Positions 848 to 5,064 of a DNA stretch of 64,000 nucleotides are shown here, piece after piece. This DNA comes from Natrinema salaciae. Lineage in GTDB: Archaea; Halobacteriota; Halobacteria; Halobacteriales; Natrialbaceae. Each line of letters starts with the position of its first letter. Within the stretch, counting starts at the first letter, position 1. The notes under the pieces were generated by a model. The model was given only the letters and a program-made list of their open reading frames with translations, was not told the origin of the DNA and did not search any database. Location: positions 616,835-680,834 of the forward strand of contig NZ_FOFD01000002.1 in NCBI RefSeq assembly GCF_900110865.1. The letters are read 5' to 3'. The position numbers and the translations under genes were made by a program.

Positions 848-2617
848 TCACCCATCGTTGTTCTGTTGCTCGGGAAGCCCCTCGATCAGCGGTTCCGTCG
901 AGAGCGCGAAATCGTCGATCAGGAACTCCGTGTCCTCGGCATACGTTGGGTTCGACCAGCCCAGGAGGTAGCCTTTGTTCCAGCCCTGGGGTTTGCTCGG
1001 ATCCTCGGGCGGGCTGAAAACGTAGTCGGTTCTCTCCGCAACCAGTTCGACCGCGGCTTCGTCCTCCCAGCGACGCCACCACTGCATGACGCCGTCGGCC
1101 TCACCCGGAGCCGAGCTCATCGTCAGCCGATGGACCGAATACATCCACCGACCCTGATCCCGGGCGGGGACGATGAAATCGTCGATTCCCTTGGTGTGGC
1201 TATACGACTGCCCGTCATCTCGCTCGGCCAGGCTCCCGGATACCGTCGCCCTCGCCGACCCGGGTTCCTCGTCGTGCGATGACCAGAGGTTGAACACCCC
1301 CGTGGGCCCGGTTCCGTGGATCGAGTAACCGTCCGTCCACACGGCGAGGAACTTGTCGTTGGTCGGGGATCCCCCACCACTCGCCTGCGAGTAGTTGTGT
1401 GGAACTCTGATCCAGAAACCAATCCAGATCTCGGGATAGCCAGTGGCGTCGTCGTTCATCCAGAACCGCTGTTCCGCCCAGGATTCGCCCGCGGGGTACC
1501 GAAACCGCAGCGACCGTCGTCCGCTCCGAGGCCGCCAGTCGCGACCCTCGGCGAACACGTCTTGCTCGCCGTTACTCCAGATGCTTCGCCCGCCGTCGGG
1601 CCACTCGTCCTGGACGACCGACGTCCGGTTATTCGACTGCCAGTAGAAGCCGTCCCTGTTCAGGTCCAACGAGAGCGTGTTCGCTTCGGCCATACTCCCG
1701 CTCTCGAAGTCGTCGAAAAACAGGGTCGGTTCCCGCAGCTCACCGGGCCCGTCGCCGCCCGTGCCATCTCCCGTGCCGGTCACCTGCACGGAGTCGACAC
1801 GGTAGGTCGTTTTCGGATCGGTGGTACGTGCCGTGATCACGATCCGCAGCGTGTCACCGGCGGCGACCGTCGCTTCGACCGTCTCACCCTCTCGGGACAC
1901 GTCGTCAGCGTACGTCGCAACGACCGTCTCGTTCCCGTCCAGCAGGTACGAGACAGTCAGCGTCTCACCGACTCGCCCGCACTCAGTATCCGCATCCGCA
2001 TCGTCACCGTCGTTGCGGGCGTTCCTCGCGAGAGTGACGACGTCGTCGTAGTCGGCGTCGCCGTTACAGTTGCGGTCGAACGCGTCCGCGTTGGCCGACA
2101 CCTCCTCACTCTCGAGGGCGTCGAACAGTGCGACGGCGTCGTCGAGATCGACGCTCCCGTCGCCGTCGACGTCCTCGAACCTGCCGTCGCCGTCCGGGTC
2201 CCTCGGCGGATCGGATCCGACGACGGCCGGTGGGCTGTCCGGGTCGTCCCGAAGCGGACCGCTGCCCCGCACCGTAACGGTCACGTCCACCGCATCGACG
2301 CTCGAGACGTCGATCGGTTCGGAGAGCCATCGTCCCTCGCCGTCGGTCTCCTCGGCGGTCAGGGCACCTGACCGGACGGCAAAGGACGGATGGGCGTCCG
2401 CCGATTCGATCTGCCAGGCGGTTTCGCCGTCGTGGACGGTAGTGCCGTCGGCCTGGTCGAACGGCTCCGCCCACGGCAGGGCGTCCGCGTCCCGGCTATC
2501 TCCGGCTCGGCCGGTCGCACCGGTTCCGAGACCGGTGCCCAATAGCATCGCGCTGACGCCCGCCCGTCCGAGGAACGACCGTCGATCGATCGCGTCGGCG
2601 CGTTCGTTCGGTTTCAT
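848..2617 (-). CDS. Tat-exported dockerin-containing lectin-fold protein, putative polysaccharide-active enzyme
   Basis: 589 residues. The N-terminus has a twin-arginine signal (DRRSFLGRAG, residues 11-20, then a hydrophobic stretch to about 36), so export by Tat is likely. Residues 45-120 look like a beta-rich domain. Residues 137-200 hold two EF-hand-like calcium loops (DPDGDGRFEDVDGDGSVDLD and NCNGDADYDD), each followed by a helix, the pattern of a dockerin. A beta-rich stretch follows at 216-281 (GETLTVSYLLDGNETVVATY). The C-terminal 290 residues (from DDFESGS) resemble the concanavalin-like jelly roll of polysaccharide lyases, rich in Trp and Tyr. The start overlaps the stop of the upstream cohesin-like gene (ATGA), so the two are co-transcribed. 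The substrate is unknown, and catalytic residues could not be assigned with confidence. Confidence 0.72.
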   Translation of the reverse strand: MKPNERADAIDRRSFLGRAGVSAMLLGTGLGTGATGRAGDSRDADALPWAEPFDQADGTTVHDGETAWQIESADAHPSFAVRSGALTAEETDGEGRWLSEPIDVSSVDAVDVTVTVRGSGPLRDDPDSPPAVVGSDPPRDPDGDGRFEDVDGDGSVDLDDAVALFDALESEEVSANADAFDRNCNGDADYDDVVTLARNARNDGDDADADTECGRVGETLTVSYLLDGNETVVATYADDVSREGETVEATVAAGDTLRIVITARTTDPKTTYRVDSVQVTGTGDGTGGDGPGELREPTLFFDDFESGSMAEANTLSLDLNRDGFYWQSNNRTSVVQDEWPDGGRSIWSNGEQDVFAEGRDWRPRSGRRSLRFRYPAGESWAEQRFWMNDDATGYPEIWIGFWIRVPHNYSQASGGGSPTNDKFLAVWTDGYSIHGTGPTGVFNLWSSHDEEPGSARATVSGSLAERDDGQSYSHTKGIDDFIVPARDQGRWMYSVHRLTMSSAPGEADGVMQWWRRWEDEAAVELVAERTDYVFSPPEDPSKPQGWNKGYLLGWSNPTYAEDTEFLIDDFALSTEPLIEGLPEQQNNDG

Positions 2618-3420
2618 CGTTCGGCCGCGCCGGTCGATTTCACGTCGACCTCGCCGTCAGTCGTCGAGACGTCACGCCGGTACCCGTCGTCGTCCTGGAA
2701 CCGCTCGCTCGTAAGCCGGAGCGAGGTCGTTCCGGGTTCGACGCCCTCGATCGTCAGCGTCGCGAGGCGAACGTCCGTGGTCCCCGGCTCGACGGTTTTC
2801 CCGACGTCGACGGCCTCGACCGTCACCGACGAGCCGTCGTCGGCCACACTGACGTTCGAGATGTCGTCGAAATCGCCGGCGAGAGTCGCGTTCTCGATAG
2901 TCGTGACGCCCGTGTCGACCCCGATCGTGCTCCGAAACCCGGACATTCCATCGGGCGCCGACTCGAGAGTGAGCGCAACGTCGTTGCGTTCCCCGGAGTC
3001 GATATCGGCCGATTCGACGGCGATCGCGGCCTCGCTCTCGCCCCCGTCATCGTTTCCGTCGTCGCCGCCGTCGTCCCCCCCGTCGCTGCCAGTCCCGGGA
3101 CCATCATCGCTGTCCTCACCGCCGTCACCGCTGGTGTCGTCCTCCCCGCCGTCGGTACCGGTATCGGTCGACTCGTTGTCCGTCGGCGAATCGTCGCTCG
3201 AGTCGTCGGGTTTCGGTGTGTCGTCCGCGTCAGTAGTCCCGTTCTCCGACGTGTCCCCGTCCGATGCGTTGGATTCTGCCGGTTGCGACGCCGTCGTAGT
3301 GGACGGTTCCGTCGATCCATCGTCCTGGGACAGTCCAAAACCCAGCATGCCGACGAAGACCGTCCCCGCAATCAGTACCGCTGCAACCCCTGCTACCGCT
3401 ACTTTCTCACCATACTTCAT
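2614..3420 (-). CDS. Membrane-anchored cohesin-like protein
   Basis: 268 residues from the chosen start. Residues 5-31 form one hydrophobic segment (VAVAGVAAVLIAGTVFVGML), which serves as signal or anchor. Residues about 35-130 are a low-complexity Ser/Thr/Asp/Gly linker typical of haloarchaeal surface stalks. Residues about 130-262 form a beta-sandwich with the cohesin pattern: VESADIDSGERNDVALTLES, then FRSTIGVDTGVTTIENATL, then VRLATLTIEGVEPGTTSLRL. It is translationally coupled (4-base overlap) to the dockerin-bearing gene downstream, so they may bind each other at the cell surface. An ATG eight codons earlier (3444) is possible, but a TATA-like TTAAAT at 3447-3452 lies just outside it and fits a leaderless start at 3420 better. 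The cohesin call is fold-pattern recognition, not a search result. Confidence 0.68.
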   Translation of the reverse strand: MKYGEKVAVAGVAAVLIAGTVFVGMLGFGLSQDDGSTEPSTTTASQPAESNASDGDTSENGTTDADDTPKPDDSSDDSPTDNESTDTGTDGGEDDTSGDGGEDSDDGPGTGSDGGDDGGDDGNDDGGESEAAIAVESADIDSGERNDVALTLESAPDGMSGFRSTIGVDTGVTTIENATLAGDFDDISNVSVADDGSSVTVEAVDVGKTVEPGTTDVRLATLTIEGVEPGTTSLRLTSERFQDDDGYRRDVSTTDGEVDVKSTGAAER

Positions 3421-3460
3421 GGCGGAAACAATTATCGTGTGCATTTAATAGTATTCGTAG

Positions 3461-3633: not shown

Positions 3634-5064
3634 TCAGACGGCGAGCGCGTCGAAAAGGATCGCGACGAGCACCGCGCCGAGGAAGGCGTTCGAGGCGTGG
3701 AACGACCGGAACGCGGCGGCCTCGGTCTGCTCGAAGTGGAGTCGAACGGCCGCCCAGAGGAAGATCCCGCCGAAGAGAACGACCGTCCCGGCGTACAGCG
3801 CGCCGAGGTCGGTGAGCAACGCCAGCGCGATCGAACTCACGAGCGTCGCGGCGATGTAGTAGAGGATGTGCTTTCGGGTGACGGTCTCGCCCCGAACGAC
3901 CGGCATCATGGGGAAGCCGCCGCGTGCGTAGTCCTCGCGGTAGGCCAGCGCGAGGTTGTAGAAGTGCGCCGGCGTCCAGAGGAAGATGACGCCCGCGAGC
4001 GCGAGTCCCGGCCAGCCGATCTCGTTCGTGACGGCGGCCCAGCCGATCAGCGCGGGCAGCGCGCCCGCAGCGCCACCGATGACCGTGTTCTGTACCGTGT
4101 TCGGCTTGAGGAGGAGCGTGTAGACGACGCTGTAAAACACGATCGCGGCCAGTCCGAGCGCCGCGGCGAGCCGGTTGATCGTCAGAAACGCGGCCAGCGA
4201 CGCTGCGGTCAGCGCGACGCCGAACATCAGGGCGTTTCGGACCGGGATCAGATCGACCGCCAGCGGCCGGTCGGCGGTTCGGGACATCTTCTGGTCGACG
4301 TCGCGCTCGAGGACGTGGTTGAACGTTCCGCTGGCACCGATCGCGAGGACGCCGCCGCCCAGCGTCGCGACGATGGTGGCGATCTCGAGCCCGGGGCCGG
4401 GGGCGGCGGCGAGGGCCATTCCCGCGGCGGCGACGAGACAGAGGAGCCACATCAGCCGCGGTTTCATCATCTTGAAGTACGCGAACGCGGTGAGTCGAGC
4501 CCGAGCGAGGCGACTCGTGGGGAGCGTCCGTTCGGGTGCGGTCGAGCCGCCCTCGAGTTCCTCGAGCGGTTCCGGCGAGTCGATGGCATCGTCCTCGCTC
4601 CCGGTCGCGATCTCGAGGTCCCACGCGAGCGCGATAACGACCCCCGTGAAGATCACGAGTCCGAGCGCGAGGTGGAGGCCGGGGACGATCGCGTCGGGTC
4701 CCATCGTCGCGGTGATGGCACCGACCCCGATCTGGACGGCGTAGAGCGCGGCGGCGACGACGAGCGTCGCCCGGACGCGACGCGATACGTCACCGAATAT
4801 CGCGCCGACTGCCGTCGTAGCGACGAGCAGGCCGACGACGACGGCGGCGATCCGGTGGCCCCACGCGATCGCGAGTTCGGTCTGGCTCAGCGGGTCGACC
4901 GGCGTGTGACAGGTCGGCCACGTCGAGCACGACGCGGCCGCGTTCGTCAGCGAGGTCGTCGCGCCGACGATCAAGAGCAGATAGACGCCCAGCGCGGTCG
5001 CTGCGAGCAGTGCGGAGAAGCGACGGCGCGTGCCGATCGGACGGGGAAACGACTCTGTTGACAC
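3634..5064 (-). CDS. ctaB: Haem O synthase (protohaem IX farnesyltransferase) with N-terminal CtaA/COX15-like half
   Basis: 476 residues and strongly hydrophobic. Residues 16-155 form a four-helix unit resembling half of haem A synthase (CtaA/COX15). It has a Cys pair (Cys46, Cys52) in an external loop and helix histidines His70 and His131 that could bind haem. Residues 155-185 are an acidic linker. Residues 190-476 are a UbiA prenyltransferase of the CtaB type, with the Asp-rich motif around Asn249-Asp257 (NHVLERDVDQK) and a second one near LAYREDYARGGFPMM. The C-terminal part farnesylates protohaem for terminal oxidases. The role of the N-terminal half is inferred only. The gene is divergent from the small zinc-finger gene at 5217. 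Confidence 0.88.
   Translation of the reverse strand: MSTESFPRPIGTRRRFSALLAATALGVYLLLIVGATTSLTNAAASCSTWPTCHTPVDPLSQTELAIAWGHRIAAVVVGLLVATTAVGAIFGDVSRRVRATLVVAAALYAVQIGVGAITATMGPDAIVPGLHLALGLVIFTGVVIALAWDLEIATGSEDDAIDSPEPLEELEGGSTAPERTLPTSRLARARLTAFAYFKMMKPRLMWLLCLVAAAGMALAAAPGPGLEIATIVATLGGGVLAIGASGTFNHVLERDVDQKMSRTADRPLAVDLIPVRNALMFGVALTAASLAAFLTINRLAAALGLAAIVFYSVVYTLLLKPNTVQNTVIGGAAGALPALIGWAAVTNEIGWPGLALAGVIFLWTPAHFYNLALAYREDYARGGFPMMPVVRGETVTRKHILYYIAATLVSSIALALLTDLGALYAGTVVLFGGIFLWAAVRLHFEQTEAAAFRSFHASNAFLGAVLVAILFDALAV

Follow-up and report, generated by a model that had tools for sequence, protein, structure and literature searches.

Cohesin-dockerin systems described in archaea and bacteria

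Cohesin- and dockerin-bearing proteins have been described for Archaeoglobus fulgidus (Bayer 1999, as cited in PMC9012536). That paper reports, with reference to earlier work, that archaeal dockerin-cohesin bonds were verified and that the archaea known before were without scaffoldins. In ANME archaea, scaffoldin-like proteins were found that carry a dockerin and as many as five cohesins (PMC9012536). A Pfam-based survey from 2010 reported that archaeal genomes were all devoid of cellulosome components (PMC2838879). Recent papers on haloarchaeal cellulose (a survey; PMC10267330) and mannan (PMC10963439) name dockerins or enzymes, whereas the word "cohesin" is absent from both.

In this study, a window of 64,000 nt from Natrinema salaciae (GCF_900110865.1, NZ_FOFD01000002.1, positions 616,835-680,834; genome label G000) was analyzed. 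It contains two neighboring genes, which are a real cohesin anchor and a dockerin protein in translational coupling. Most likely they form a surface-docked enzyme unit.

Gene order and translational coupling of the pair

The pair is located at window positions 848-3420 on the minus strand, with P0002 upstream of P0001. P0002 (2614-3420, minus strand) encodes an anchored single-cohesin protein of 268 aa with orthologues in the genomes G143, G308, G138 and G282. A start at an in-frame ATG upstream, at position 3444, is also possible. P0001 (848-2617, minus strand) encodes an exported dockerin-bearing protein of 589 aa, and its full-length relatives (63% identical) occur only in G138 and G282. 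The stop codon of P0002 and the start codon of P0001 share 4 nt in an ATGA overlap (2614-2617, minus strand). A sequence-only reading had placed an ATGA-overlapping two-gene unit at exactly these positions, and the sequence bears it out. In the profile search of the 64-kb window, P0002 was the only cohesin gene and P0001 the only dockerin gene.

The pair is adjoined by a 476-aa heme A synthase/protoheme farnesyltransferase-like gene (window 3634-5064, minus strand), which is a synteny marker shared with G143 and G308.

Membrane anchor, stalk and cohesin domain of P0002

P0002 contains a single strongly hydrophobic stretch (residues ~4-32). The N-terminal transmembrane helix was assigned to about residues 7-30 (3331-3402, minus strand) from 19-residue Kyte-Doolittle windows of at least 1.6 at starts 4-14, and is conserved in the G143 and G308 orthologues. 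It is followed by an acidic low-complexity stalk of 95 residues (33-127; 3040-3324, minus strand), which is rich in G, T and S and has a D+E content of 35%. The cohesin domain comprises residues ~131-262 (2635-3030, minus strand). Its AlphaFold model, built from an alignment of 45 sequences, has a pLDDT of 90.7 and 11 strands in a jelly-roll cohesin fold. In the Foldseek comparison with the PDB, the best 50 matches listed were all cohesins or cohesin-bearing chains. The top match was 6kgc (E 2.3e-11, TM 0.79), and the Archaeoglobus fulgidus cohesin 2xdh was among the top matches as well (E 1.2e-10). Both the cohesin-like domain and the long-stalk membrane anchor of the sequence-only reading are thus found in P0002.

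The haloarchaeal cohesin profile matched P0002 with an E-value of 4e-52 in the window search, and none of 3,694 reversed ORFs matched the cohesin or dockerin profile at E < 1e-3. Single-sequence searches of P0001 and P0002 against Pfam, NCBIfam and PDB had almost no yield, and for P0002 no Pfam cohesin match was obtained. PF00963 was touched by 3 of 17 P0002 relatives (best E 0.0062). The best PDB sequence match of the broadened cohesin profile was the cohesin 5lxv_A (E 7e-4). The PDB matches of the first cohesin profile (sliding clamps and other non-cohesins) all had E > 0.05 and were judged to be chance.

Signal, interrupted sandwich and dockerin segment of P0001

P0001 begins with a Tat-type signal (DRRSFLGRAG..., with the motif RRSFLG; 2507-2587, minus strand), which scored 11.7 bits with TIGR01409, below the cut-off of 16.7 bits (NCBIfam). 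In the hydrophobicity scan no anchor stretch other than the signal was found. The signal is followed by a beta-sandwich in two halves, residues ~47-119 (2261-2479, minus strand; conserved in three relatives) and ~216-281 (1775-1972, minus strand; from the relatives' alignment and the model). The sandwich is split by the dockerin segment, and the flanking strands align in three relatives. Since its strands have low to medium model confidence and the Foldseek matches to CBM folds are weak, the CBM-like nature of the sandwich is only suggestive.

The dockerin segment covers residues 137-200 (2018-2209, minus strand) and was modeled with a pLDDT of 94-97. It contains two canonical 12-residue calcium loops, DVDGDGSVDLDD (residues 149-160) and DRNCNGDADYDD (residues 181-192), each followed by a helix, as is the case in type I dockerins. 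The order is loop-helix, linker-helix, loop-helix, with helices at 158-167, 171-180 (linker) and 190-201. No helix precedes loop 1 in the model, which is dockerin-like and unlike paired EF-hands. The dockerin profile matched P0001 with an E-value of 5e-33, and the best single-sequence PDB match was the dockerin chain 5lxv_B (E 0.0023). With PF00404 a score of 12.4 bits was reached, below the cut-off of 22.9, which is a detection threshold and not a structural criterion; most haloarchaeal relatives likewise fall short. The haloarchaeal dockerin profile also resembles EF-hand proteins, which was counted against docking.

The two-loop dockerin-like segment proposed from the letters alone is therefore borne out by the model (pLDDT ~95) and the two canonical loops, and structure prediction yielded a cohesin for P0002 and a dockerin segment for P0001. 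Profile searches, named there as a further check, had a divided outcome: the haloarchaeal profiles recognize both partners, and neither reaches its Pfam cut-off.

Remote lyase similarity of the P0001 C-terminal domain

The C-terminal domain of P0001 (residues 295-583; 869-1735, minus strand) had no Pfam match and no PDB match by sequence or profile. In hhalign comparisons it scored 43.4 over 194 columns with haloarchaeal PF14099-like proteins (best of 40 column shuffles 21.1) and 36.7 with PL14-like proteins (best of 40 column shuffles 23.3). Neither PF21294 nor PF14099 matched in the G000 genome. Relatives of the domain, which are 65-67% identical, occur in only 2 of 391 genomes, and none was detected in the plasmid and phage collections. 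The AlphaFold model of the whole protein has a mean pLDDT of 50 and is poor outside the dockerin, so the Foldseek list of P0001 was not used for naming the enzyme. The polysaccharide-lyase-like fold suggested earlier is hence remotely supported by profile similarity, with no match to a family profile; "lyase-like" may be taken as a fair lead, not as an assignment.

Compared to Archaeoglobus fulgidus, which presumably has a single-cohesin protein and a partner bearing the dockerin, the likeness lies in an archaeal cohesin with a dockerin partner. The difference lies in the N-terminal membrane helix and acidic stalk of P0002 and in the possibly lyase-like P0001 with its dockerin inside a beta-sandwich.

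Distribution of the pair among Halobacteria

Cohesins of the type with an N-terminal transmembrane helix were identified in five of 391 genomes, namely G000, its congeners G143 and G308 and the other-family genomes G138 and G282. The full-length P0001 enzyme occurs in three (G000, G138 and G282), all within these five (P ~1e-6, ignoring phylogeny). In G138 the enzyme is located ~383 kb away from the cohesin gene; the co-occurrence thus goes beyond linkage alone. In G282 the P0001-type enzyme is found on a different contig from the cohesin, and the gene directly after the cohesin encodes another enzyme, which shares the sandwich interrupted by a dockerin. Both G143 and G308 retain the cohesin in synteny, next to the heme A/ctaB gene. 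Neither genome has a P0001-type enzyme or a dockerin of the window class, and the full-length dockerins examined there belong to the GH class, which was counted against docking of the pair.

In the trees, the dockerins of the window, G138 and G282 enzymes form one clade (support 0.955), and so do the cohesins of the same three (support 0.998). From linkage, co-occurrence and parallel trees we infer that P0002 and P0001 are matched partners. The arrangement in the relatives supports pairing in trans, and other clients of the anchor are possible. The earlier picture of a scaffold holding one enzyme agrees with the anchor; "one enzyme" may be too narrow, given the enzyme's position elsewhere in G138 and G282 and its absence from G143 and G308.

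A cellulosome-like cluster and multi-cohesin proteins outside the window

Bacterial type I cellulosomes (Clostridium thermocellum, C. cellulolyticum) share with the system described here the cohesin fold, type I-like loops, dockerin enzymes and surface anchoring. The window unit differs from them in having one cohesin, no scaffoldin, and a membrane helix instead of SLH or sortase anchoring. The window unit as a cellulosome was rejected, having only one cohesin.

By profile search, G000 as a whole has 18 full-length dockerins and six to seven cohesins. A region of roughly 29 kb outside the window (G000:C3:141905-171128; L159, L160) contains 12 dockerin genes along with one gene each for a scaffoldin and an anchored cohesin. 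The scaffoldin (811 aa) has three cohesins (two strong, one weak), fn3 and PKD domains, and CBM_5_12 scored 24.0 bits (cut-off 26.2). The separate anchored cohesin protein has 237 aa. Among the cluster proteins, Pfam identified GH5, GH10, rhamnogalacturonan lyase 11 (RGL11) and a sortilin/BNR-type protein, and recognized no cohesin. Several dockerin-bearing polysaccharide enzymes and a multi-cohesin protein, as known from bacterial cellulosomes, are therefore present in this cluster and not in the window unit. At G000:C3:161580-162272, a dockerin sequence runs across two frames in an apparently broken or frameshifted gene. A further 575-aa protein (L160 521-2248; G000:C3:153521-155248) has a CBM-like N-terminal part, no Pfam match and no dockerin.

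Multi-cohesin proteins were also found in two other genomes. At G344:C23:280717-307903 (L166, L167), an eight-cohesin protein with a GH5 domain is accompanied by a 258-aa anchored cohesin. At G265:C1:2391604-2399999 (L168), three genes stand in a row, for a five-cohesin scaffoldin with a dockerin, a GH5-like protein with cohesin and dockerin, and an anchored cohesin of 199 aa. The cohesins of the C3, G344 and G265 clusters are putative assignments by profile matches, mostly at 1e-18 or better. The G344 gene lengths (637, 610, 1755 start-adjusted, 258, 759, ..., 589, 741, 577, ..., 815) match those of Natronoglomus mannanivorans 2716-2726 (PMC10963439). The published list gives GH5/CBM6 for the eight-cohesin gene and "S-layer glycoprotein" for the anchored cohesin of 258 aa. 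In the open-licence literature, the candidate cellulosome-like cluster of G000 appears to have gone unrecognized by standard domain searches and published surveys. The likeness to ANME lies in archaeal multi-cohesin proteins (PMC9012536). ANME clients include ABC transporter binding proteins, whereas here polysaccharide enzymes and PhoX are found and one protein carries eight cohesins.

In another genome, a protein with three cohesins and a dockerin is located amid several long dockerin proteins (G209:C1:141579-176284; L172, L173).

PhoX-type pairs and co-occurrence in haloarchaea

A search of genome contigs by conserved cohesin stretches yielded 28 cohesin loci (L069-L096), all of them from named haloarchaea. 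In 27 of 27 assessable loci (the 28th is truncated at the end of its contig and was left out), a PhoX-type gene with a cohesin and ending in a dockerin immediately precedes an anchored cohesin gene on the same strand. The gap ranges between -4 and 123 nt with a median of 34 (22 measurable cases). The G000 example on contig C7 (L061 5198-8511) is PhoX by Pfam (PF05787, E 3e-28). The Pfam test was limited to C7; for the remaining loci the assignment was made from the length and the start of the sequence, with L094 (1,145 aa) as a possible exception. With its own cohesin and dockerin and an anchored cohesin next to it, PhoX could be chained on the surface (G000:C7, L069-L096).

These pairs resemble the window pair in their adjacent same-strand genes, with an anchorless exported dockerin protein and a single-cohesin membrane protein. 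In the PhoX pairs the enzyme comes first, carries a cohesin too, and the anchor is C-terminal, whereas in the window pair the anchor gene comes first and has an N-terminal helix.

With the broadened profile, cohesins were detected in 155 of the 391 Halobacteria genomes; by genus, 48 of 86 have them. Counted with the cohesin and P0001 as queries (the latter matching mostly by its dockerin), 137 of the 391 genomes have both and 9 and 27 only a single one (Fisher P 3e-65, not phylogeny-corrected). The 27 genomes have a dockerin without a detected cohesin, which was counted against docking. The view that archaea have yielded cohesins and dockerins only apart from each other is incorrect, since A. 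fulgidus bears both (PMC9012536) and coupled pairs are common in haloarchaea (the 27 loci above). The coupled pair is not unique; the window pair is one variant among many haloarchaeal pairs.

Predicted specificity classes

In bacterial type I dockerins, loop positions 10-11 set specificity. At these positions the window dockerin has LD/YD, the PhoX dockerins YD/YD and the C3 cluster dockerins HA/FA. The C3 cohesins are placed apart from the P0002 cohesin in the tree. From these residues and groupings we infer three dockerin classes in G000, each with its own cohesins (window pair, PhoX pair and GH cluster), and three insulated cohesin-dockerin systems in one cell are predicted.

On balance it is probable that true cellulosome-like complexes are formed in haloarchaea from numerous dockerin enzymes, cohesins anchored in the membrane, and scaffoldins bearing several cohesins, as many as eight. 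This genome would run three insulated systems, the window pair being one, and they would have escaped notice because the Pfam cohesin model falls short.

Probable docking of P0001 to P0002 and other explanations

The explanation regarded as likely is that P0002 anchors P0001 at the cell surface by cohesin-dockerin docking. P0002 would be the surface anchor, with its membrane helix, one cohesin and an acidic stalk reaching through the S-layer. P0001 would be exported via the Tat pathway without an anchor of its own, and its dockerin would bind the P0002 cohesin in a calcium-dependent manner, retaining the enzyme on the cell. Its lyase-like domain would act on surface polysaccharide. The pair would thereby be a single-cohesin relative of the wider haloarchaeal cohesin-dockerin system. 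This explanation builds on gene order and overlap, the cohesin fold, the dockerin segment, the anchorless enzyme, linkage and co-occurrence.

The function of the C-terminal domain is the part for which another reading has the most weight. The pair could dock as described while this domain, as a jelly roll, serves carbohydrate binding or a structural role; the unit would then attach the cell to a glycan without degrading it. The domain has no family match or known catalytic residues and its model is of low confidence. The collinear profile similarity to lyase families over ~190 columns, well above the shuffled controls, argues against this, and such a tether is considered rather unlikely. Slightly less probable still is that P0002 serves as a general anchor in the membrane, used in trans mainly by other dockerin proteins (e.g., the C3 scaffoldin or GH enzymes), and that P0001 was acquired as a client later. 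This would fit the cohesin standing alone at the same site in G143 and G308, with GH-class dockerins in those examined, and the unlinked matching enzymes of G138 and G282. However, an anchored cohesin is already present within the C3 cluster, the tree separates the P0002 cohesin from those of C3, and the loop positions are not the same in the window and GH dockerins.

That the two proteins do not bind at all is improbable. In this case P0002 would carry an adhesion domain of cohesin fold, and the two-loop segment would be a calcium-stabilized or EF-hand-like insertion for folding or substrate contact. The Pfam cut-offs that were not reached, the EF-hand matches of the dockerin profile and the assignment of a haloarchaeal dockerin domain to substrate binding (PMC10963439) are in line with such an insertion, whereas without docking it would be difficult to account for the co-occurrence, the adjacency and the presence of multi-cohesin proteins among dockerin enzymes. 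Moreover, archaeal cohesin-dockerin binding is reported as verified in PMC9012536.

The window pair is a satellite of a larger set of haloarchaeal cohesin-dockerin systems that have stayed hidden and whose partners are predicted to bind. As a small unit, it is suited to binding and specificity tests. If these cohesins bind, aerobic halophilic archaea, previously thought to be without them, would have surface-tethered enzyme complexes. This would provide a source of salt-stable docking pairs and would recast the haloarchaeal breakdown of insoluble polymers and, through PhoX, the scavenging of phosphate.
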